From the NCBI GenBank assembly GCA_039193195.1, contig JBCCWS010000022.1:1-64000 (forward strand): a stretch of DNA of 64,000 bases, written 5' to 3'. The DNA is from Pseudomonadota bacterium. Its GTDB lineage: Bacteria > Pseudomonadota > Gammaproteobacteria > Steroidobacterales > JBCBZW01. Shown here piece by piece: positions 53,240 to 64,000 of the stretch (within the stretch, counting starts at the first letter, position 1; the number at the start of each line of letters is the position of its first letter). The notes beneath the pieces were generated by a model. That model did no database searches. It saw only the letters and a list, made by a program, of their open reading frames with translations, and had not been told where the DNA came from. Both the position numbers and the translations under genes were made by a program.

Positions 53240-53533
53240 TGATCGATTCCTCCATGAGCGAGAAGTGCTAAGCGCAGGCTGTTCCACCTCTCCTACCTAC
53301 TCCTACGCGTGGCCGCGACTAAGTGATCTAGATGCGCACGCTTTGCCTTCGCCAAGGTCCCCGCTGACGGGGAGACGGATGCCCGAAACCGTCGCCGCCT
53401 GGGTTCGCCAGGGGATTGACTCTGTTCATTGCCATTCGGTCGTCAGTTAGACTGGCAGGCCGTCACCGTGTCGCACTGCGCGAAGGCTAAACGACAACAC
53501 CGAAATCGAGCATCCGGCGCCAGGGAGGGAGCC

Positions 53534-55246
53534 ATGTCGACCGACACCACAAGAAAACTCTGTATCGCAGCGGCAGTGAGGAGGGCCCTGGGTACCTCAG
53601 CCGTGGTCTCCATGCTGGCAGGGCTCTCGCTTTCGGGGACCGCCGCGGCCCCGGGCCCGCGGGCTGACGCAGACGCGAACGCCGCATTTCCGCCTGTCAT
53701 CGAACTCGCGAGCCTCCTGCCGTTCACCGGTGGTGACGGGAGTGCTGGCTTCGTCGTGTCGGGGTCGAGCCTCGATACGGATGGATTCCTATCCGCCGTC
53801 CCCGCGCATAGCGATTTCAATGGGGATGGCATCGACGATCTCATCTTGCCGTCCGGACGAGACAAGTTCGTGCTCTTCGGCGACTCCTCCGGGTTCCCTC
53901 CCTTCTTGTCTGTCGATGCGCTCCGGCCGGCGGCCGGCGGTGATGGGTCTCGCGGTTTCGTCATCATCGACCCGTCGGAGGGCGGCAATCAGCGGAGCGT
54001 GATCGCATCCGCCGGTGATGTGAACGCGGACGGAATCGACGATGTGATCATCGGCAATCGCCGGGGAGAAGACGGTGACATTGCCCCAGGGGTCGCCTAC
54101 GTGCTCTACGGCCGCTCGGACGGCTTCCCGGCCGAGATCGATCTCGCATCGCTCAGCGCCGAGGGAGGCGGTGATGGGTCGACAGGCTTCGAGCTCGTGG
54201 GGGTGGAGGATCTTGCCAGTACGGGGACGGCCGTCTCCGGCGTCGGCGATATGAACGGGGATGGCATCGATGATTTCGTCGTGGGAGCGTCGGACGAGAG
54301 TGTCGAAGGCTCCTCACGTGGCGTGGCTTACGTGGTGTACGGTCGCGCCGAGGGCTTCCCGATCCGCTTCGAGCTGGGGACTTTGCGGGCGGACAACGGT
54401 GGCGATGGCAGCGAGGGCTTGGTGATCGAGGGCACCAACGATCTTGATCGGGCTGGCAGTCGCGTCGGCCCTGCCGGGGATATCAATGGCGATGGCCTGC
54501 AAGATCTCATCATCGACATCACCGGTTTCCTGAGCCCCGGTCCCACGGCCGTCGTGTTCGGTCGACGCAATCTGCCAGCGCGTCTGCCCCTGAGATCACT
54601 GAACGGTGCCAACGGCTTCACCGTCCGCGAAGGCAACCTGATCGACGGCGTCACGGTGGTGAAGGGCGGCGATATCAACGGTGATTCGCTTGACGACCTC
54701 ATCGTCGGCGAACCCTTCGCCTACGTCGGCAACCTCCGCCGCGGGTCGGCCTACGTGTTGTTCGGTAAGGTCGAGCCCTTCGAGCCAGCGTTCAGCATCA
54801 CCTTCCTGACCGGCGAGCGCGGGGGTGACGGCTCAGAGGGCTACCGGCTCGCCGGCAATGGCTACAACGAGCTGGCGGGTAGCGGGATTGGCGCGGCAGA
54901 TGTCAACGGTGATGGACTCCAAGACGTGATCGTGGGCATCCCTCGGGTGGATGTGCGCGACAACGTCGATGCCGGACGGGTCTACGTCCTCTACGGCCGA
55001 ACGGAACGCACCGGGCCTGACATACCGCTCTTCCGTCTGCTCCCGGTGCAAGGTGGGGACGGCAGCGAGGGCTTCTCGGCGAGCGGTATCGCCGAGGACG
55101 ACGAGACCGTTGGCGTGGGCGGCGTTGGCGATATCAACGGGGATGGTATCGAGGACTTCGCGTTCGCGGCGACAGAGGCAAACCGCTTCGGCCGGGAGGA
55201 CGTGGGTCAGGTCTACGTGCTGTTTGGACGCTTGCCAACTCCATAG
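53534..55246 (+). CDS. Secreted FG-GAP (integrin-alpha-like) repeat protein
   Basis: A 570-residue exported protein composed of seven FG-GAP blades. Each has a Ca-binding loop of type D-x-N-x-D-G-x-x-D (for example G-D-M-N-G-D-G-I-D-D-F-V-V-G) followed by A-Y-V-L-Y-G-R and G-G-D-G-S-x-G-F, so a beta-propeller is expected. AGGGAGGGAG precedes the ATG at 53534; the frame is open further back without a signal peptide. Close paralogue of the partial gene at 62998. Ligand unknown; probably extracellular adhesion or binding. Confidence 0.82.
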   Translation: MSTDTTRKLCIAAAVRRALGTSAVVSMLAGLSLSGTAAAPGPRADADANAAFPPVIELASLLPFTGGDGSAGFVVSGSSLDTDGFLSAVPAHSDFNGDGIDDLILPSGRDKFVLFGDSSGFPPFLSVDALRPAAGGDGSRGFVIIDPSEGGNQRSVIASAGDVNADGIDDVIIGNRRGEDGDIAPGVAYVLYGRSDGFPAEIDLASLSAEGGGDGSTGFELVGVEDLASTGTAVSGVGDMNGDGIDDFVVGASDESVEGSSRGVAYVVYGRAEGFPIRFELGTLRADNGGDGSEGLVIEGTNDLDRAGSRVGPAGDINGDGLQDLIIDITGFLSPGPTAVVFGRRNLPARLPLRSLNGANGFTVREGNLIDGVTVVKGGDINGDSLDDLIVGEPFAYVGNLRRGSAYVLFGKVEPFEPAFSITFLTGERGGDGSEGYRLAGNGYNELAGSGIGAADVNGDGLQDVIVGIPRVDVRDNVDAGRVYVLYGRTERTGPDIPLFRLLPVQGGDGSEGFSASGIAEDDETVGVGGVGDINGDGIEDFAFAATEANRFGREDVGQVYVLFGRLPTP

Positions 55247-55879: not shown

Positions 55880-57301
55880 ATGAAACCACCCAGGGCAACT
55901 ACCTTGAGCCTCTTCGCCTCCAGTGCCTTGGCGGTCTCGAGTGCATGGGCCAACAACAACCCACCCAAAATCGGGAACGTAACCGTCGACTCTGACGCCA
56001 ATCAAATTGTCATCGTTGGTACAGGCTTGCTGCGGGCAAACGGCAACGTCCCCAACATCAGACTTCTCGACAATCCCAATATCATCCTCGAGGGCTGCGT
56101 GGCTGATCCCGTAACCCCGAATTTAGTTGTGGTGTGTGAGCTGCCTGCGGTCAGTGGCACTGACTACGTTCTTCGCATCTCTGACGGCAGCGGCACTGAT
56201 GATTTCAATTTGACGATCGGCATGGTTGGGCCACAAGGCGACCCCGGTCCTCAGGGCGAACCTGGCCCTCAGGGCGAACCTGGCCCTCAGGGCGAGCAGG
56301 GACCTGTTGGCGCACCTGGGCCTCAGGGTCTCCCCGGTGACACCGGACCGCAAGGACCCGCCGGCGCAACCGGACCGCAAGGACCCGCCGGCGCAACCGG
56401 ACCTCAAGGGCCCCCAGGTGACACCGGGCCGCAAGGACCCATCGGCGACACCGGACCCCAGGGACCGGCTGGTCCCGATGACCAGACGTTGAGCGTCAAT
56501 GGCACCGAATTGAGCATTGAAGACGGTAACACTGTGGAACTGGCGTCCCTCTTGGACTCGACAGACATACCCTTGCCAGCAAACATGGCATGGATCAGCC
56601 CTGGGTCGTTCAACTTGGGCAGCCCGCAGGCTGAAGAGGGTCGGGATTCGGACGAAGACGATACTGCTGGCGCTGGTGGACGGCAGGTAACTGTTTCGAT
56701 TCTCAGTGGGTTCTGGATCGGTATTCATGAGGTGACCCAACGAGAGTACCTGAATCTGATAGGACTCAACCCCAGCTTCTTCACCGACAGTCTGGATCAG
56801 CCAGTTGAGCAGGTAAGTTGGAATGACGCGATCTTCTACTGCTTAGCACTCACTTCAGACGAGCGAGCAGCCGGAAACATCCCGACCGATTGGGAGTATC
56901 GCTTGCCCACCGAAGCGGAATGGGAATACGCAACCCGGGCGGGCACGGTGACGGCTTACAGTTTCGATAACTCTCCTTCAGACTTGGGGGACTATGCTTG
57001 GTTCTCAGACAACAGCAGTAGTCAAACGAGGGAAGTGGGCCTTAAGTTACCCAATCCTTGGGGCCTTTATGATGTTCACGGCAATGTGGCTGAATGGGTA
57101 TTGGACGCCTATGCAGCCTCCTACCCCCCCGGGGCGTTGATCGACCCCCAGAGTCTTCCAGGCGGTTCTGAGCGCGTGATACGTGGTGGCAGCTGGTCCC
57201 TGTCGAGCAAAGACGCGCGCTCAGCGGCTCGTCGTAGTGCGATGACCATCTCCGCTTCCATCGACATCGGATTTCGTGTAGTGCTCGCACCAGTTCGATA
57301 A
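55880..57301 (+). CDS. Exported collagen-like protein with FGE/SUMF1-type domain
   Basis: A 473-residue protein in four parts: signal peptide (to about residue 25), an IPT/TIG-like beta domain (about 27-114), 28 perfect Gly-X-Y triplets (117-200, rich in G-P-Q and G-P-A), and a formylglycine-generating-enzyme-like domain (about 230-473: [38 protein letters not shown]). The catalytic Cys pair of true sulfatase activators is absent after G-G-S-W, so it probably binds or has another activity. The triplet region should form a trimeric triple helix. AAGGGGAG precedes the ATG at 55880. Codon use is less GC-rich than that of its neighbours. Confidence 0.87.
56228..56479 (+). repeat. Collagen-like Gly-X-Y coding repeat
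   Basis: 252 bases of 9-bp-periodic DNA coding for 28 Gly-X-Y triplets. It includes two adjacent identical 18-bp units (GGCCCTCAGGGCGAACCT) and two adjacent 27-bp units, so slippage could change its length. Confidence 0.85.
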
Positions 57302-57933: not shown

Positions 57934-58598
57934 TTTCTTGCGGTCTAAAGTAGGGGATTAAGATGGCTTTGGGCCGTTCGAAGTATTGTATTGCGAAATC
58001 GCATGCTCCTTGGTCCCTCTCTCCAGCCTCGCGAGACTAGCACAAGCGCAGACCACTCCCGTGTGGCAACTCAATGATATCAATAGTGACTGTGGATTTT
58101 TGACTAACCGGCTATGCAAATTCCTTATCGAAGGTGCAGAAGTCAACGTTCTCATCTCGGGACCGTCAAGTAGGCCTGTGCGCAAGGTCATGTGGTTGAG
58201 GGGCAGCGTGGCGGCGGGTGCGGGAAGCATGTCGCGGTTTGCCGCCAGATCGGGCGGATCGAGATGCACGGTGCCGCCGAGCGATGTACATAGGCGGGGG
58301 CACTCGGCCTCAAACCTGTCGTTCGAGGTTGCGTCGACGTATTGAGTGGCACTCAGCGAGGGCGCAATCGCGCCGTTGCCCCGCAGCAGCGGCCTTAGCG
58401 TGCGCTGGCGACTGTTCGGGTCGAACGTCGTGGCGACCGTTCTCTCGAGTTGGCCCTACTCCACTCGTTGGAAGCTCGGCGCAAGATACCTGATTTCCAC
58501 TGGATCGTCGTCCCGACGCGGCGCCAACCCCACCCGCGCGCGCCGAAATCCCGCCGCCAACCTGGCAGCTCGCAGGCAGATCTTCTAAGGTGCGCGCC
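57934..58598. other. 665-bp intergenic region before the AAA+ gene
   Basis: A + strand frame from 57986 begins with a signal-like segment and N-D-I-N-S-D-C-G-F-L but degrades into Ser/Arg-rich sequence; it may be a gene remnant. The 5' half is AT-richer than the 3' half. No RNA or repeat is seen. Confidence 0.3.
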
Positions 58599-61500
58599 AT
58601 GGAAATCGCGCTCCCCCTTTTGTTCGGTGCCCTGCTCGGTGCCGCCATGACCTTGCTCGTCTCCCGGCTCCTCGCCGCGAAGGCGGACGAGCCGGCGTCT
58701 ACGCAACCCGACGAACAGCCGTCTACGCCCGACGGCGAGCACACGACTAAGCCCGAGACCCCGTCGTTCAACGCCGCAGCCCTGCACAAGCTGGCCGAGG
58801 ACCTCGAACCTCGCGCGGACGAGCTAGCGAGACCGAACGACCTACTCGAGGACGAAGATTTCCGTAAGGCGGTCGCCCTGCTACGCGATGGCGCAGTGTC
58901 CGTAGAGACGCTGGTCGAGTACGCCGGCGGCGCCAACTGGCTGGTGGCATGCGCAGCCCTTGAGGTGCTGCGCACCCACGCCGAGGGCGCGAAGGCCCTT
59001 GACGACATGCCCGACGTGCTCCAAGGGATGGGGGCCTGGCCCATGTACTTCGGCAGCCGCTACGTCCAAGCCCACGCACCCGAGCGCGCCATCGGCCTCG
59101 TCTTCGCCCGCGTGCGATCCTGGTGGACCGACAACGTGCGCATGCACGCGCTGCTGAACGGCATGTTGCGCGAGCTCGACGCCGCGGGCGTCCCGTGCAC
59201 CTTCGGCAGCGAACTCCCGCGTATCCCCCGCAAGCGCCTGGAGAAGCTGCGCGAACTGCTCAAGCAACTGTCGAACCCAGCCGTCAGCACCCTTGCCGTC
59301 GAGGTGGACGAGGCCCTCGCCAGCACGGTCGACGTGGACTTCCTGACCACAATCGGCCGCGTGCGACGCCCGGGACCGACGCTACCCGCCGAGGCGCCAC
59401 CCATCGCCGATCCCCGCTCGGCGAAGTATCTGGAGATGGTGAGCGCTCGACTTCAACGCGATCCACCCGCCTCGGTGGTGTTGGTCGGCGACACGGCCGT
59501 CGGCAAGAGTGCCGTGCGCGAGCTGTTGGCCAGCGCGCTCATCGCCGATGGCTGGACGGTGGTGGAATTCACCGCCAACCGCCTGGTAGCGGACAAGTCC
59601 TACATCGGTCAGATCGAAGGCGTGGTGCAGCGGGTCGTCGAGAAGGCCACCGTGCGTGCGCGGGTGGCTTTGTTCGTCGACCGCATGCACGAACTGAGCT
59701 CCGCCGGCACCTACCGCAACCACCCCCAAGGCGTGCTCGACGCGCTGCTGCCCGCCCTGGAGCAGGGCACGGTGTTCCTCGTCGGCGAGACGGGCACGCG
59801 CGCTTGGCAGCAGCTGCTAAAGCAGAGGCCAGCGCTGCCGACGGCCCTCGAGGCCCTCATGGTGGACCCCGCCACGGATCGTGAGACCACGGCCCTGGTA
59901 AGCGCCTACCTCAACTCCCTACCGTCGATGCGCGACAGCGGCGACGGCGCCGTGGCCCAGCTTACCGGCGAGGCCATCGCCCTCGCGCGCAGCTACATCT
60001 CGCACCTGAAGCTGCCGGGAGCCGCGATGGAGCTGGTGAAGATGGCCGTGGAGCGTGACCGCCGACGCGCCACGGACAACACCGCAGCCAAACCCCTGGG
60101 TCGACAAGATCTACTCGCCACCCTGGGCGAGGTGAGCGGCCTACCCGAAGCCCTTCTCGACGAGCAGCAGCGCCTGGACATCGACGCCATCGCCCACGGC
60201 TTCGCCGAGCGCATCATCGGCCAGCAGGAAGCCATCGACTGCCTTGTGGAACGCATCGCCATGATCAAGGCGGGACTGACCGACGCCGGTCGGCCCGCGG
60301 GCGTGTTCCTGTTCGCTGGCCCCACGGGCACCGGCAAGACGGAGATCGCCAAGACCCTGGCTGAGCTCCTGTTCGGCAACGTCGATCGCATGATCCGCCT
60401 CGACATGAGCGAGTACCGCGGGGGCGAGGCCCCGGCCAAGCTCCTGGGCGCGCGCTACGAGACGGGGCAGCAGCAGTCGCTCGTCGACCAGGTGCGACGC
60501 CAGCCCTTCTCCGTCATCCTGCTCGATGAGTTCGAGAAGGCGGACCGCACCGTGTGGGACCTGTTCCTGCAGGTCTTCGACGATGGCCGCCTGACCGACG
60601 CGGTGGGCAACGTGGCCGACTTCCGGCACTGCATCATCATCCTCACCTCCAACGTCGGCGCGACGATCAGCTCCAACGCGGGCATCGGCTTCACGGGCGA
60701 GGACGCGGGCGGCTTCGATCCCCGCGACGTGCGCACGGCGATCGGTAACACCTTCCGCAAGGAGTTCGTCAACCGCCTCGATCGCGTGGTCGTGTTCCAG
60801 CCCTTCACGCGCCCGCAAATGCGCCGCATCCTGCAGAGGGAACTGCACGATGTGTTGCAGCGGCGAGGCTTGCGCAACCGCGAGTGGGCCGTGGAGTGGG
60901 AAGACTCAGCCGTCGACTTCCTCCTGGCGAAGGGCTTCAGCCCTGACCTGGGCGCGCGCCCCTTGCGCCGTGCCATCGATCACTACGTGCTGGCACCCCT
61001 GTCGATGACCATCGTGCGCCAGCAGTTCCCCGAGGGCGATCAGTTCCTCTTCGTGCGCGGCGACCAGCACGGCATCCGCGTCGAGTTCGTCGACCCTGAC
61101 CTGCCCGACATCGCGAAGTCACCCCCCGCCGCCGCCAGCCTCGAGTCGGCCGGATCGGCATCGGCGGATCTGTCCCTCGGCCAAGTCATGCTCGATGGGA
61201 CAGGAAATGCCGCCGAGCGCGCTTACCTAAGCGCACAGATCGCCACCCTGGCCCAGACGCTGGAAGGCGAGCGCTGGGAGAGTCAGAAGAGTGCACTGCT
61301 GGCGAGGATCAACGAACCCGCCTTCTGGGAGTCGCCGGAGCGCCATCAGTCCCTCAGTCGTATGGAACTGATGGATCGTCTCGAGTCGGGCTGGCGCGCC
61401 CTGCACTCCCTGCTCCAGCGAAGGACCAACGGCGCGGCGAGCGCTCGTCTGCACGCTGATATCGCGCAAAAGCTGCACCTGCTGGGCGCGGCGCTGGAAG

Positions 61501-62009
61501 ACCTCAACGGCGAGCGTCCGATCCACGCCTTCATCGCCGTCTCCGCCGGCGAGGCTGGGCAGGCGCTAGCAACGGATCCCGAGCATTGCTACGCGGCCGT
61601 GTGTCGCATGTACGAGCAGTGGGCATCGCACCGGCGCATGAAGTACGAGGTGCTAGAGCCACGCGCCGAGACTGGTAGCGCGCGCGAACAGCACGCCGCC
61701 GTCAGCGGCTTCGGCGCGTACAGCTTGCTGCGCGGCGAATCGGGCCTGCACGTGTGGGAGATTCCCCTGCAGGAACGTCGCACGAGGCTCGTGGTGAGAG
61801 TGACGGTCACGCCCCAACCGGTGGCGCCCGCGCCCTCGCGCGCGGCCTGGCTCGAGAGCGCACGGCAGCTGCTGAGCGACGCGAGCGCTAAACCTATGGA
61901 TATCGTTCGGCGCTATCGAGAGCAACCCTCACCACTAGTGCGCGATGCGCGCGGGTGGCGTACGGGGCGTTTGGATCGGGTGCTGGACGGTCACTTCGAC
62001 ATCATGTAA
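58599..62009 (+). CDS. Membrane-anchored double-AAA+ ClpB-like ATPase fused to a GGQ-less release-factor-2-like domain
   Basis: A 1136-residue protein. One TM helix (about 3-24) is followed by a linker and a helical domain (about 50-270). AAA-1 has Walker A V-G-D-T-A-V-G-K-S (296-304), but its Walker B reads F-V-D361-R362-M-H, so the catalytic Glu is Arg, and no arginine-finger pair is evident. AAA-2 is intact and ClpB-D2-like: G-P-T-G-T-G-K-T (574-581), L-L-D643-E644-F-E-K-A, I-I-L-T-S-N-V-G-A, and a small domain with G-A-R-P-L-R-R. From about 865 the sequence resembles RF2: N-E-P-A-F-W-E-S-P-E-R-H (905), V-S-A-G-E-A-G (980s), R-M-Y-E-Q-W-A-S-H, L-L-R-G-E-S-G-L-H (1043-1051), and a tail with V-R-D-A-R and V-L-D-G. 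ATG 58599 follows AAGG; GTG 58590 is in frame. Function unknown. Confidence 0.88.
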   Translation: MEIALPLLFGALLGAAMTLLVSRLLAAKADEPASTQPDEQPSTPDGEHTTKPETPSFNAAALHKLAEDLEPRADELARPNDLLEDEDFRKAVALLRDGAVSVETLVEYAGGANWLVACAALEVLRTHAEGAKALDDMPDVLQGMGAWPMYFGSRYVQAHAPERAIGLVFARVRSWWTDNVRMHALLNGMLRELDAAGVPCTFGSELPRIPRKRLEKLRELLKQLSNPAVSTLAVEVDEALASTVDVDFLTTIGRVRRPGPTLPAEAPPIADPRSAKYLEMVSARLQRDPPASVVLVGDTAVGKSAVRELLASALIADGWTVVEFTANRLVADKSYIGQIEGVVQRVVEKATVRARVALFVDRMHELSSAGTYRNHPQGVLDALLPALEQGTVFLVGETGTRAWQQLLKQRPALPTALEALMVDPATDRETTALVSAYLNSLPSMRDSGDGAVAQLTGEAIALARSYISHLKLPGAAMELVKMAVERDRRRATDNTAAKPLGRQDLLATLGEVSGLPEALLDEQQRLDIDAIAHGFAERIIGQQEAIDCLVERIAMIKAGLTDAGRPAGVFLFAGPTGTGKTEIAKTLAELLFGNVDRMIRLDMSEYRGGEAPAKLLGARYETGQQQSLVDQVRRQPFSVILLDEFEKADRTVWDLFLQVFDDGRLTDAVGNVADFRHCIIILTSNVGATISSNAGIGFTGEDAGGFDPRDVRTAIGNTFRKEFVNRLDRVVVFQPFTRPQMRRILQRELHDVLQRRGLRNREWAVEWEDSAVDFLLAKGFSPDLGARPLRRAIDHYVLAPLSMTIVRQQFPEGDQFLFVRGDQHGIRVEFVDPDLPDIAKSPPAAASLESAGSASADLSLGQVMLDGTGNAAERAYLSAQIATLAQTLEGERWESQKSALLARINEPAFWESPERHQSLSRMELMDRLESGWRALHSLLQRRTNGAASARLHADIAQKLHLLGAALEDLNGERPIHAFIAVSAGEAGQALATDPEHCYAAVCRMYEQWASHRRMKYEVLEPRAETGSAREQHAAVSGFGAYSLLRGESGLHVWEIPLQERRTRLVVRVTVTPQPVAPAPSRAAWLESARQLLSDASAKPMDIVRRYREQPSPLVRDARGWRTGRLDRVLDGHFDIM

Positions 62010-62080: not shown

Positions 62081-62980
62081 TCAGCCCCCGAGGCGACGCA
62101 GCAAGGCGAGCGCTTCATCGGCCAGCGGCTGGAGTGCCTCTCGATCACTGCTCTGCGCCGTCCCGTATACCTCCAGCAGGAACCGTCGCAGGTTGTGCCT
62201 CGCGGCCAAGCGTTCGAGGGTTGTCGTGGCCCCGTCAAATACATCGGCGTTCGCCTGTGCCAATTCCTCGAACCAACGCTGCCAGGTCGACGCGGACGCA
62301 CGTTCATGCAGTGCCATGTAGAGAATGGGCCGAGCGAGTCGCTGGGACTCGCCGTGCACATATGGGGCGGCGGGGGCGACTTGGGCCGCGACGGCAGCCC
62401 GCAGCACCGCATGTTGATCGGCATCGGTCCTGTCGTTGAGCACGAGCTGCAGCGCGAAGTCACTGCTGTGGGCGATCGCGTGGCGCCATCCAACGTCCGG
62501 ATCGTAGCCGCGATAATCGCGCACTTCCCGCAGGCTCTGGGAGGCAGTGGACACAAGTCCCGAGAACTCCTCGTCGCTCAGGAACTGGTGTAGACGATCG
62601 ACGCGTGCCAGCTCCGACAGCCCTAGGATTGCGAAGGACCGTCGAACGCCTGCCGGATCAGGCTCCTGCAAGCGCGCGGTGAATAGATCGATCAGCTGGC
62701 GCGCGGTGGCTCGATCCCCATCCCCACGCCTGAGAATGGCGGACAGCCCGGTGAACCCGATTTCGTCGCGGAGAAAGGGGTCGACGTCCTGCATCAAGCG
62801 AGCGAGCAGCATGAGGCTCGCGTTAGGATCGTCGGTCTGAAACTCCCCAACCCGCCAGGCCTCGAGCTCGGCGCGATCGGTCGGCACCTGCGTCGCCTGG
62901 GCCAGGCCAGACACGCCAGTGAGCAGAAGCGCTAGCGAGACGCCCCATGTTGCCAAAGGCGCGAACGAGCGACCTATCAT
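62081..62980 (-). CDS. DUF2785 family exported protein
   Basis: A 299-residue helical protein with an N-terminal signal (S-L-A-L-L-L-T-G-V-S-G-L-A-Q-A). DUF2785 features are L-R-D-E-I-G-F-T-G-L-S, S-F-A-I-L-G-L-S-E-L, V-R-D-Y-R-G-Y-D-P-D-V-G-W-R-H-A-I-A-H-S-S-D and L-Y-M-A-L-H-E. Function unknown. The ATG at 62980 follows CAGGA; it lies 17 bases after the FG-GAP gene stop, so the two are likely one transcript. Convergent with the AAA+ gene. Confidence 0.82.
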   Translation of the reverse strand: MIGRSFAPLATWGVSLALLLTGVSGLAQATQVPTDRAELEAWRVGEFQTDDPNASLMLLARLMQDVDPFLRDEIGFTGLSAILRRGDGDRATARQLIDLFTARLQEPDPAGVRRSFAILGLSELARVDRLHQFLSDEEFSGLVSTASQSLREVRDYRGYDPDVGWRHAIAHSSDFALQLVLNDRTDADQHAVLRAAVAAQVAPAAPYVHGESQRLARPILYMALHERASASTWQRWFEELAQANADVFDGATTTLERLAARHNLRRFLLEVYGTAQSSDREALQPLADEALALLRRLGG

Positions 62981-62997
62981 GTATTCCTGCCCCCTGA

Positions 62998-64000
62998 TCA
63001 AGGCGCCGGCACGGGACGCGGTCGGCCAAAGACTACGTAGGCCCCACCCCCAGCGGGATTCAAGAAGCGCGGCGAGTGCGGCGCGCCTAGCAAGACGTCA
63101 TCGTAGCCATCGCCGTTCAGATCCCCCGCCGAGGACACCGCCTCACCCATGCGCCCCGGGTTCTCTGTGAGGGTGAGCGACTCCCCGCGAAACACGATGC
63201 CTTCAGTGCCGTCGCCGCCGTTCGCCACGCGCAAATCCGTCAGATCCACTTGGGCAGGAAAGCCGCCAGAGCGACCGTAGAGCAGGTACGTGACACCTTC
63301 CGCGACAACGCCATCTCGCTGCACCCCGTTGGCGTCGATGTCCGGGTGACCGATGAGCAGGTCATCGATACCGTCGCCGTCGAAGTCGCCGGCGCTTGCC
63401 ACCCGGTCCCTAACGAACCCCTGAGGATTGGAAACCTCGGCGCGCAGGAAGAACCCGTCGGTGCCGTCACCACCGAGCGCTGGCCTCAATCGATCCAGGC
63501 GCACGCGGGCCGGCCGTGGCGCTGAGCTGCCGTACAACACGACGGCCTCTCGCGCGCCAATCCCGTCGATGCCGATCGGCGCCAGGTCGACAACCATGTC
63601 GCTGCGGCCGTCGCCATTCATGTCGCCCGCGCCTTGCACGCGCGACACCCCCTGCGGGCGCTCGACCGTCACGACGAAGCCCGCCCTGCCGTTGCCGCCG
63701 TTCTCGGGGAGCAGGTTGGCAAGATCGATCACCGGCGGGAAGGCCGTGTTGCGCCCGTACAGGACGAAGGGCGTGAGCAGCAGATCGGGCAGGCCGTCCG
63801 CGTTGATGTCAGCACAGGCGATCTCGTCGCCGATGTCGCCGGCGAAGTTGGCCGGTGCCGCACCCTTCACCACGAAACCCGCGCTGCCATCCCCGCCCGC
63901 CTGGGGAAGCAGCGACGCGAGATTGACTGCCGGCGGAAAGTCCGAGCTCCCATACACCACATAGACCACGCCTGCGGCGTTGCGGCCGTCGGGGTCCGCA
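62998..64000 (-). CDS. FG-GAP repeat protein, 5' end beyond the window
   Basis: At least 333 residues, open to the window edge with no stop, so the N-terminus lies outside. FG-GAP blades with D-x-N-x-D-G-x-x-D loops (G-D-M-N-G-D-G-R-S-D, G-D-F-D-G-D-G-I-D-D, G-D-L-N-G-D-G-Y-D-D) alternate with V-V-Y-V-V-Y-G and G-G-D-G-S-A-G-F. The segment P-A-V-N-L-A-S-L-L-P is nearly identical to the start of the 53534 protein, so the two are paralogues. Followed by the DUF2785 gene. Confidence 0.82.
   Translation of the reverse strand, partial: ADPDGRNAAGVVYVVYGSSDFPPAVNLASLLPQAGGDGSAGFVVKGAAPANFAGDIGDEIACADINADGLPDLLLTPFVLYGRNTAFPPVIDLANLLPENGGNGRAGFVVTVERPQGVSRVQGAGDMNGDGRSDMVVDLAPIGIDGIGAREAVVLYGSSAPRPARVRLDRLRPALGGDGTDGFFLRAEVSNPQGFVRDRVASAGDFDGDGIDDLLIGHPDIDANGVQRDGVVAEGVTYLLYGRSGGFPAQVDLTDLRVANGGDGTEGIVFRGESLTLTENPGRMGEAVSSAGDLNGDGYDDVLLGAPHSPRFLNPAGGGAYVVFGRPRPVPAP

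Follow-up and report, generated by a model that had tools for sequence, protein, structure and literature searches.

A Clp-type AAA+ ATPase fused to a release-factor-2-like module without the GGQ domain

HSP100 motors of the Clp type and release factors are two known kinds of proteins, which we introduce here from excerpts of the cited papers. The IGF loops of Clp motors dock on ClpP (PMC9035409), and KYR and GYVG loops grip the substrate (PMC9663308). Bacterial release factors carry their catalytic domain as an insertion within the codon-recognition domain (PMC6514570). On the ribosome, superdomain 2/4 of RF2 contacts the decoding centre of 30S, and the subunits are bridged by domain 1 at the rim of the A site (PMC6742477); this domain is dispensable for release and is believed to interact with RF3 (PMC1586002). 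A release-factor-type module is paired with an AAA+ motor in Vms1-Cdc48 (PMC6514570), and the plant chloroplast protein PrfB3 is an RF2 paralogue that has lost the SPF and GGQ motifs and carries out a new task (PMC5897788). Here, we describe a gene in which both kinds are joined in one chain. It lies in a stretch of 64,000 nucleotides (the window) from a Pseudomonadota bacterium (GenBank assembly GCA_039193195.1, contig JBCCWS010000022.1), whose genome comprises 6.7 Mb on 113 contigs.

The encoded protein consists, in this order, of an N-terminal hydrophobic helix, a helical N-domain, the AAA+ domain D1, the AAA+ domain D2 with its D2-small part, a variable linker, and a release-factor module. 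The tail is almost certainly a release-factor-derived module that lacks the GGQ domain and belongs to a Clp fusion. The features of the gene are as follows (pLDDT, predicted local distance difference test).

58599..62009 (+): coding sequence of the fusion protein, 1136 residues, by translation of the open reading frame
58587..58590 (+): putative Shine-Dalgarno-like AAGG, eight bases 5' of the ATG start, by sequence reading
58605..58661 (+): N-terminal hydrophobic segment, residues 3-21, a predicted transmembrane helix by hydropathy, followed by basic residues
58773..59366 (+): all-helical N-domain, about residues 59-256, without a Pfam match, by structure model and profile search
59412..60098 (+): D1 AAA+ domain with Walker A and the pore-1 Tyr (SYIGQIE) conserved and with D-R in place of the Walker B D-E, by alignment
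60171..61049 (+): D2 AAA+ domain and D2-small, with Walker A GPTGTGKT, Walker B LLDEFEKA, NRLD, and GARPLRR, by Pfam and alignment
60447..60473 (+): site of the D2 pore-1 loop, PPGYVG of ClpA/ClpB absent, by alignment
60684..60692 (+): I-G-F, lined up with the I-G-F of the genome's own ClpA, by alignment
61104..61196 (+): variable linker, residues 836-866, pLDDT below 50 at 838-856, by model and conservation
61197..61523 (+): helical part like RF2 domain 1, by structure and profile comparison
61524..61823 (+): part like RF2 domain 2, with the Pfam PCRF match at 61524-61754; without SPF or the GG(T/D)EA tip
61824..61898 (+): short linker or helix at the site of RF2 domain 3 (GGQ), by model and profile-profile alignment
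61899..62006 (+): last strand of RF2 domain 2 and domain-4-like end, IVRRYREQPSPLVRDARGWRTGRLDRVLDGHFDIM, the most conserved stretch of the protein

Release-factor kinship of the C-terminal module

The original prediction, made by reading the window, had proposed that the last ~270 residues follow RF2 and had suggested a profile search as a check. Searched alone (61191-62006), these residues significantly match Pfam PCRF (PF03462) with 39.4 bits (expect value E 7.2e-10, cut-off 24) and the NCBIfam RF2 model prfB with 41 bits (E 1.2e-10), where module residues 13-187 correspond to model positions 4-189 of 353. The NCBIfam RF1 models give 29.5 and 26.9 bits. The prfB score and both RF1 scores lie far under the curated cut-offs (370-423), which is expected because the module is a partial and diverged copy. 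A PCRF scan of the whole genome yielded three matches, namely the ordinary release factors with 251.6 and 195.3 bits and the fusion gene with 37.6 bits, and PCRF is detected at E<=0.001 in 25 of the 28 modules of the family described below. Against the PDB set, the single window sequence retrieved 34 sequences up to E 1, all of them release factors, with RF1 slightly ahead (best 5e-6, 29.5 bits) of RF2 (from 2.9e-5, 27.0 bits), as also within its own genome (28 versus 22.9 bits). With the 28-row family profile, the best PDB match is E. coli RF2 (3.7e-18, profile positions 6-187 on RF2 10-203); the 14 best distinct sequences are all RF2, after which RF1 follows with 5.2e-11 at best. In the reverse search direction, release-factor-sized frames (358-478 aa, presumably ordinary release factors) reach 61.9 bits (E 1.9e-16).

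Profile-profile comparison (E 3.2e-16 versus RF2, 3e-10 versus RF1) extends the likeness across the whole length, including the RF2-like end of the earlier proposal, and the structure model is in agreement. In the profile alignment the GGQ domain of release factors faces a gap in the module; a global alignment with RF1 did not position the module end in this way. The AlphaFold model of the module (pLDDT 90.8; predicted template modelling score, pTM, 0.88) superposes on the RF2 crystal structure 1gqe with Z 16.6 over 248 residues (root-mean-square deviation 4.7, model 15-283 on RF2 9-356), and its fold is RF2-like in domains 1, 2, and 4. RF1 structures reach Z 15.8, which is a tie with RF2 by the rule of the tool (within one Z unit), and all 46 listed entries with Z>=8 are release factors or PrfH. 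The Foldseek template modelling scores by query length are moderate (0.58 for 1gqe and ~0.4 for most others), as expected because one domain is missing and the domains turn freely.

By the family profile and the prfB model, the module appears most like RF2. The module probably derives from RF2 itself and not from an older release factor, but this is not certain, since RF1 is a close second by structure and comes slightly first for the single sequence. In a tree of 27 modules with 12 RF2 and 12 RF1 sequences, the modules are found on one side of a branch with support 100/100; the sequences point to a single origin of the modules. RF1 or RF2 parentage is not given by this tree because it has no outgroup and its release factors come from the window's own order only. 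Two side observations concern release factors elsewhere. The genome's RF2 frame (L002) starts shortly before FDYAGKADQL, which would fit the known programmed frameshift of prfB. Furthermore, release-factor-type matches in long frames of 775, 780, and 1780 aa (L020, L030, and G028:C1:2115962-2116225) perhaps reflect frame read-through or further fusions.

The two signature motifs of release factors are absent from the whole family. As had been read from the window, S-P-F is replaced by I-P-L (in H-V-W-E-I-P-L) and the GGQ domain is missing; SPF and GGQ are each found in 0 of 28 modules. Because the catalytic domain sits as an insert within the codon-recognition domain of bacterial release factors, a factor that loses it retains domains 1, 2, and 4, as seen here. 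GG occurs within the scanned helix-5 stretch in 4 of 28 rows, the window not among them: that of L078, L080, and L081 sits just before MY, off the tip of helix 5, and that of L086 nearer the tip. A PxT pattern in two rows was set aside as meaningless, having matched P-E-T ahead of the loop. The module should therefore be able neither to read a stop codon nor to release a peptide.

Conservation is highest in the last 36 residues, which correspond to the part of RF2 that follows the GGQ domain. Here, 20 of 36 columns are conserved to >=90% (mean 0.80), compared with 130 of 334 columns (mean 0.72) in D2 (26 rows). Invariant in the end of the 28 aligned modules are R-x-Y, P, D, R-G-W-R-T-G, L, V, G, and F-D. 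This end contains 7-10 K/R residues, whereas 21 RF2 and 25 RF1 rows have 3-5 in theirs. The whole module has net charges between -11 and +3; those of the equivalent domains in these release factors lie between -5 and -23, in a comparison where the domain boundaries differ somewhat and the release-factor rows come from one order. On the whole, the module thus appears more basic than ribosome-binding release factors; its near-neutral charge had been considered as an argument against binding of ribosomal RNA, which was dropped after this comparison. The kept domains 1, 2, and 4 together with the conserved end argue for a retained working surface.

The Clp-type motor and its membrane anchor

Among the NCBIfam models, ClpB scores best (303.7 bits in two stretches, cut-off 1232), followed by ClpA (296.3 bits, cut-off 993.15) with one continuous stretch that spans D1 and D2 (residues 293-809 on ClpA 209-723). 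Pfam detects AAA_2 and ClpB_D2-small in D2, and in the PDB set this domain is nearest to ClpB (228.9 bits), then to ClpC (211.3) and ClpA (159.9). No M-domain stretch is found between D1 and D2, as the ClpA match is unbroken and the ClpB match falls in two parts; in the model of this region, the helix 474-491 continues to the next helix 502-513. The full-length model (pLDDT 84.7, pTM 0.57), in which the domain arrangement is uncertain, has ClpC chains from ClpC-ClpP entries as its first ten fold matches, followed by a mixture of ClpC and ClpB and, at rank 49, a single ClpA. The term ClpB-like used in the original prediction is thus appropriate for the D2 sequence and not for the layout, which is that of ClpA/ClpC (no M-domain stretch, GF loop) with a D1 that lacks D-E and a D2 that lacks GYVG. 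The helical N-domain has no Pfam match.

The motifs of the two rings were compared by aligning 10 family rows with the genome's own ClpA and ClpB and by scanning the family. In D1, Walker A is kept in most rows (Solirubrobacter has R for K) and the pore-1 Tyr or Phe in 27 of 29, and the Walker B D-E is found in 0 of the 29 rows showing the site. In D2, Walker A is present in 29 of 30 rows (one row is cut) and Walker B LLDE in all 30; NR[LI]D and the G-x-R-P-L of sensor 2 (27 rows) are also kept. PPGYVG of D2 is missing in all 10 aligned rows, and an aromatic residue is found in the scanned D2 pore loop of a single row out of 27, the window. At the ClpA loop position G-F occurs in 30 of 30 rows, preceded by I/V/L in 26 and by P or A in 4; it lines up with I-G-F in the ClpA of this genome, whose ClpB has no such loop. 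From these motifs, D2 would be the live and sole ATP-hydrolysing ring, and D1 would bind nucleotide or substrate passively without hydrolysing ATP. A further candidate Clp-type two-ring ATPase of the genome lies at G000:C2:65194-67248 in a 1015-aa frame. A defence system was also considered; the PADLOC matches (DolB, PDC-M37B, and weaker ones) fall in the AAA core of D2 and were not counted as evidence.

Residues 3-21 have an average Kyte-Doolittle hydropathy of 2.32 over 19 residues and form part of a helix (4-27) in the full-length model, which bears out, for the window protein, the transmembrane helix that had been placed ahead of the two AAA+ domains. Because basic residues come after this helix, the ATPase would be cytoplasmic. 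With the anchor defined as a 19-residue stretch of hydropathy >=1.75 ahead of the N-domain, 18 of the 30 family rows have one, and five rows (L069, L074, L075, L092, L094) are cut, interrupted, or unclear and could not be judged. An anchor for the membrane tether proposed at first is thus seen in the 18 rows and not in seven others that are considered below.

Distribution and neighbourhood of the family

A related-locus search with a four-row alignment returned 29 loci elsewhere, labelled as six phyla, and in 29 of 29 the D2 Walker B is in frame with the module. The likeness to RF2 and the architecture therefore extend to homologues beyond the window sequence, and the notion of a single-genome oddity is rejected, though the family is sparse. 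Together with the PCRF match and the RF2-like fold, this disposes of all three refuting conditions set out in the original prediction. According to the locus titles, the hosts are Acidobacteria, Planctomycetota, Woeseiaceae, Lysobacter and relatives, a Rhodospirillales bin, Krumholzibacteria, Deltaproteobacteria (Myxococcota in the tree labels), and Solirubrobacter; most loci are metagenome bins, and single taxon labels may be wrong. Cultured strains with the fusion are Solirubrobacter taibaiensis KCTC 29222, Solirubrobacter deserti CPCC 204708, and Pseudoxanthomonas helianthi 110414. Three loci (L068, L070, L073) are contigs of genomes in the same-order sample (G360, G514, G021), and L087 and L088 come from one strain.

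The frequency of the fusion was estimated in genome samples, where members were called by score and full-length match; each sample includes its centre genome, and the counts are lower bounds because a limited number of candidates is scored per genome. Members were found in at least 4 of 246 genomes of the same order (in the other 48 of 52 genomes over the 1e-7 threshold, the matches resemble ordinary release factors), in at least 1 of 274 of the class, with the single window sequence as query, and in at least 2 of 299 of the phylum. Around other loci, the counts are at least 7 of 247 in the phylum of L067's genome (12 passed 1e-15, five of them only through a release-factor-sized frame), at least 7 of 151 in the order of L079's genome, at least 9 of 199 in the phylum of L072's genome, and at least 2 of 246 in the phylum of L083's genome, one of these in a 216-aa frame. 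One genome can carry two handles, as G788 and G1510 show the same place. The fusion family is thus sparse but phylogenetically wide, with a conserved architecture. A tree of D2 plus module (27 rows) groups mostly by phylum, with 6 label changes where the minimum possible is 5, in keeping with an ancient family that has undergone many losses or ancient transfers. The locus L080 is titled Gammaproteobacteria and stands inside the Krumholzibacteriota clade in both trees, which is either a wrong bin label or a transfer.

The ordinary release factors of the host are encoded elsewhere, on C1 (RF1, with P-A-T) and C12 (RF2, with S-P-F). Two full-length ordinary PCRF proteins are present in 13 of 14 genomes examined, so that the fusion is not a replacement for ordinary release factors in those genomes; PCRF also detects the fused gene itself in 12 of these 14 genomes, with G523 and G527 as the exceptions. 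The R-G-W-R-T-G motif was found in 11 further loci, and in 10 of them it is in frame with the D2 motifs. In the eleventh, L140, the family module lies in a frame of just 216 aa, possibly a broken or frameshifted copy. In a genome of the same genus (G001), a weak match to the last 100 residues (L143 4234-4479 (-), 33% over 101 columns, E 4e-5, one stop) is possibly a decayed remnant in a sister species. A wider family that has the N-domain without the tail was also sought: a profile of the N-domain and D1 matched from its first position only in the same 4 of 246 genomes, among the matches listed, and in 202 other genomes over the threshold the listed rows begin at position 145 or later, like ordinary Clp proteins, so that such a family is not supported. 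Two genomes (G380 and G007) score above the rest in this search.

Among 129 neighbour groups with at least two loci each, a conserved operon was not found, as only three groups cross lineages, several loci being cut short. These three hold kinase/FGE-type domains (the window's FGE call is by Pfam, the remainder by eye), ABC-transporter-like genes (by eye), and other domains, respectively. In the window, an FG-GAP repeat protein (Pfam) is encoded upstream at 53429-55246 (+), a protein with a collagen-like triplet repeat and a sulfatase-modifying-factor (FGE) domain (Pfam) at 55880-57301 (+), a DUF2785 protein convergent with the fusion gene at 62081-63001 (-), and on the other flank, downstream, a repeat protein that by eye looks similar to the first at 62998-64000 (-). 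Upstream of three Lysobacter-type loci (L079, L084, L086) lies an open reading frame that looks MutS-like by eye. No relative was confirmed in viral contigs, and the matches in plasmid records (10) and phage records (3) are partial, none covering 80% of the query; the listed ones (5 of the 10 and all 3) have 54-55% coverage and 25-27% identity, like ordinary release factors. A mobile element was rejected on these grounds.

Possible roles and relation to known systems

Our tentative proposal is a membrane-bound remodeller whose release-factor arm docks on ribosomes. A hexamer would sit at the cytoplasmic face of the membrane, with the release-factor arms as the docking domain for the ribosome (at the A-site rim and the GTPase-centre side) or for another part of the termination machinery. 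The arm would accept the A site whatever the codon, stalled or idle ribosome complexes at the membrane would be remodelled or stripped by D2, and clients may pass to ClpP by way of the [IVL]GF loop. The machine would thereby operate much as the eukaryotic Vms1-Cdc48 pair does, with a release-factor-type part and an AAA+ motor, though in a single chain, with the unrelated bacterial fold, and with no hydrolase activity. A module that keeps domains 1, 2, and 4, has lost codon reading and catalysis, and is more basic would fit such a codon-independent docking arm, and we commit to docking on the strength of the retained domain 1 and the Arg-rich conserved end. The more specific idea of a single-chain bacterial counterpart of Cdc48-Vms1, in which a membrane AAA+ machine would find ribosome complexes and its D2 would dismantle them or clear nascent chains in about six phyla, is possible but rather doubtful.

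Several observations weigh against this proposal. The codon-reading elements of RF2 are gone (SPF throughout, and the helix-5 GG is off its place except perhaps in L086), and without the decoding motifs the module cannot dock quite as RF2 does. Moreover, the alignment gap takes in the switch-loop side of domain 3. The missing aromatic residue of the D2 pore-1 loop makes threading doubtful, and no anchor was seen at the chosen hydropathy in 7 of 30 rows (L078, L080, L081, L085, L083, L087, L088). The neighbour groups give no hint of translation, as the three of 129 that cross lineages look by eye like common domains, and in one of the 14 genomes (G520) a single ordinary PCRF protein was found. 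Finally, we assume that the tail sits on the ClpP-facing side of D2, where it may block ClpP docking.

The odds of ribosome docking are about equal to those of an exapted scaffold, in which the captured release-factor fold would be an interaction, oligomerisation, or substrate-recognition domain without ribosome contact and the invariant end would pack on D2 or on a client. The loss of SPF and GGQ in 28 of 28 modules is in keeping with this role, as is a conservation peak in the last strand and end rather than in the decoding loops. The same is true of the further R-G-W-R-T-G loci, where the motif shares its frame with D2 in all but the perhaps broken L140. PrfB3 provides a precedent of an RF2-derived protein with a new job (PMC5897788). 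A pure scaffold would, however, have no need of a module more basic than true release factors, nor does it account for the retention of domain 1, the part thought to meet RF3 (PMC1586002).

We consider it unlikely that the fusion is a membrane-anchored ClpP partner, i.e., an adaptor-fused Clp protease motor whose tail picks clients and whose [IVL]GF loop docks ClpP. The G-F of 30 of 30 rows, with I/V/L before it in 26, matches the genome's own ClpA and not its ClpB, and the ten ClpC chains at the head of the fold matches come from ClpC-ClpP entries; yet the GYVG pore loop of D2 is deleted, D-E of the D1 Walker B is found in 0 of 29 rows, and the score is far under the ClpA cut-off (296 versus 993 bits). 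We also count against it that the tail should, as we assume, hang from the ClpP-facing end of D2. Still far less probable is an RNA- or mRNA-binding tail that holds transcripts or translating complexes at the membrane. Although PrfB3 has likewise lost SPF and GGQ and stabilises the petB mRNA (PMC5897788), and the C-terminal end of the module is Arg-rich, protection of an mRNA leaves the ATP-driven Clp motor unexplained. An assembly chimera or chance similarity, conceivable while the first sighting was one reading of a single sequence, is ruled out by 29 loci elsewhere, three cultured strains among them, and by profile E values down to 3.7e-18.

Like the original prediction, which knew of no described system of this kind, our literature search, covering open-licence PubMed Central papers only and thus no proof of absence, found no description of such a Clp/release-factor fusion; a word search for Clp in the main text of the survey of release-factor architectures by Burroughs and Aravind 2019 gave no match. 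HSP100 motors and release factors are here joined in an architecture that we could not find described. The fusion suggests that protein-remodelling motors and the translation machinery are linked in a way not yet described. Should the tail bind ribosomes, a membrane-tethered motor would couple termination or rescue to Clp-type remodelling, reminiscent of Cdc48-Vms1. Otherwise, the family would clearly illustrate how a release factor can be recruited as a domain through loss of its catalytic insert, which bears on release-factor evolution. The family can be tested because cultured hosts exist (Pseudoxanthomonas helianthi and two Solirubrobacter species).

Compared with known systems, the module shares with RF2 the fold and order of domains 1, 2, and 4, the motifs MYxxWA and SGxxAxxxLxxExGxH, and the end R-[S/R]-Y ... 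D ... R-T-G ... V-L-x-G-x-(F/L)-D; it differs by lacking the GGQ domain, SPF, and the helix-5 GG tip, by its fusion behind an AAA+ motor, and by forming its own clade. With ClpA/ClpC, the fusion has in common two AAA+ rings, the unbroken match to the ClpA model, Walker A/B, arginine finger, and sensor 2 of D2, and the GF loop, but it has an anchor (in most readable rows), its own helical N-domain, a D1 without D-E, a D2 without GYVG, and the release-factor tail. ClpB is the nearest D2 sequence in the PDB set and the top NCBIfam score, but its model matches in two stretches, and the fusion has a GF loop and no GYVG. RFH/PrfH is likewise a class-I release-factor relative outside the RF1/RF2 pair; it is described as lacking domain 1 and keeping GGQ (PMC1586002), whereas the module keeps domain 1 and lacks GGQ, and its model superposes on RFH/PrfH with Z 9.4 versus 16.6 on RF2 (VIA-align). 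PrfB3, compared by description only, binds the petB 3' untranslated region, and the excerpted account describes no ATPase fusion (PMC5897788). Vms1-Cdc48, as presented in the excerpt, has an unrelated fold (archaeo-eukaryotic RF1), consists of two proteins, and keeps a loop with a conserved Gln (PMC6514570), whereas the fusion is one chain with a bacterial release-factor fold and no hydrolase.

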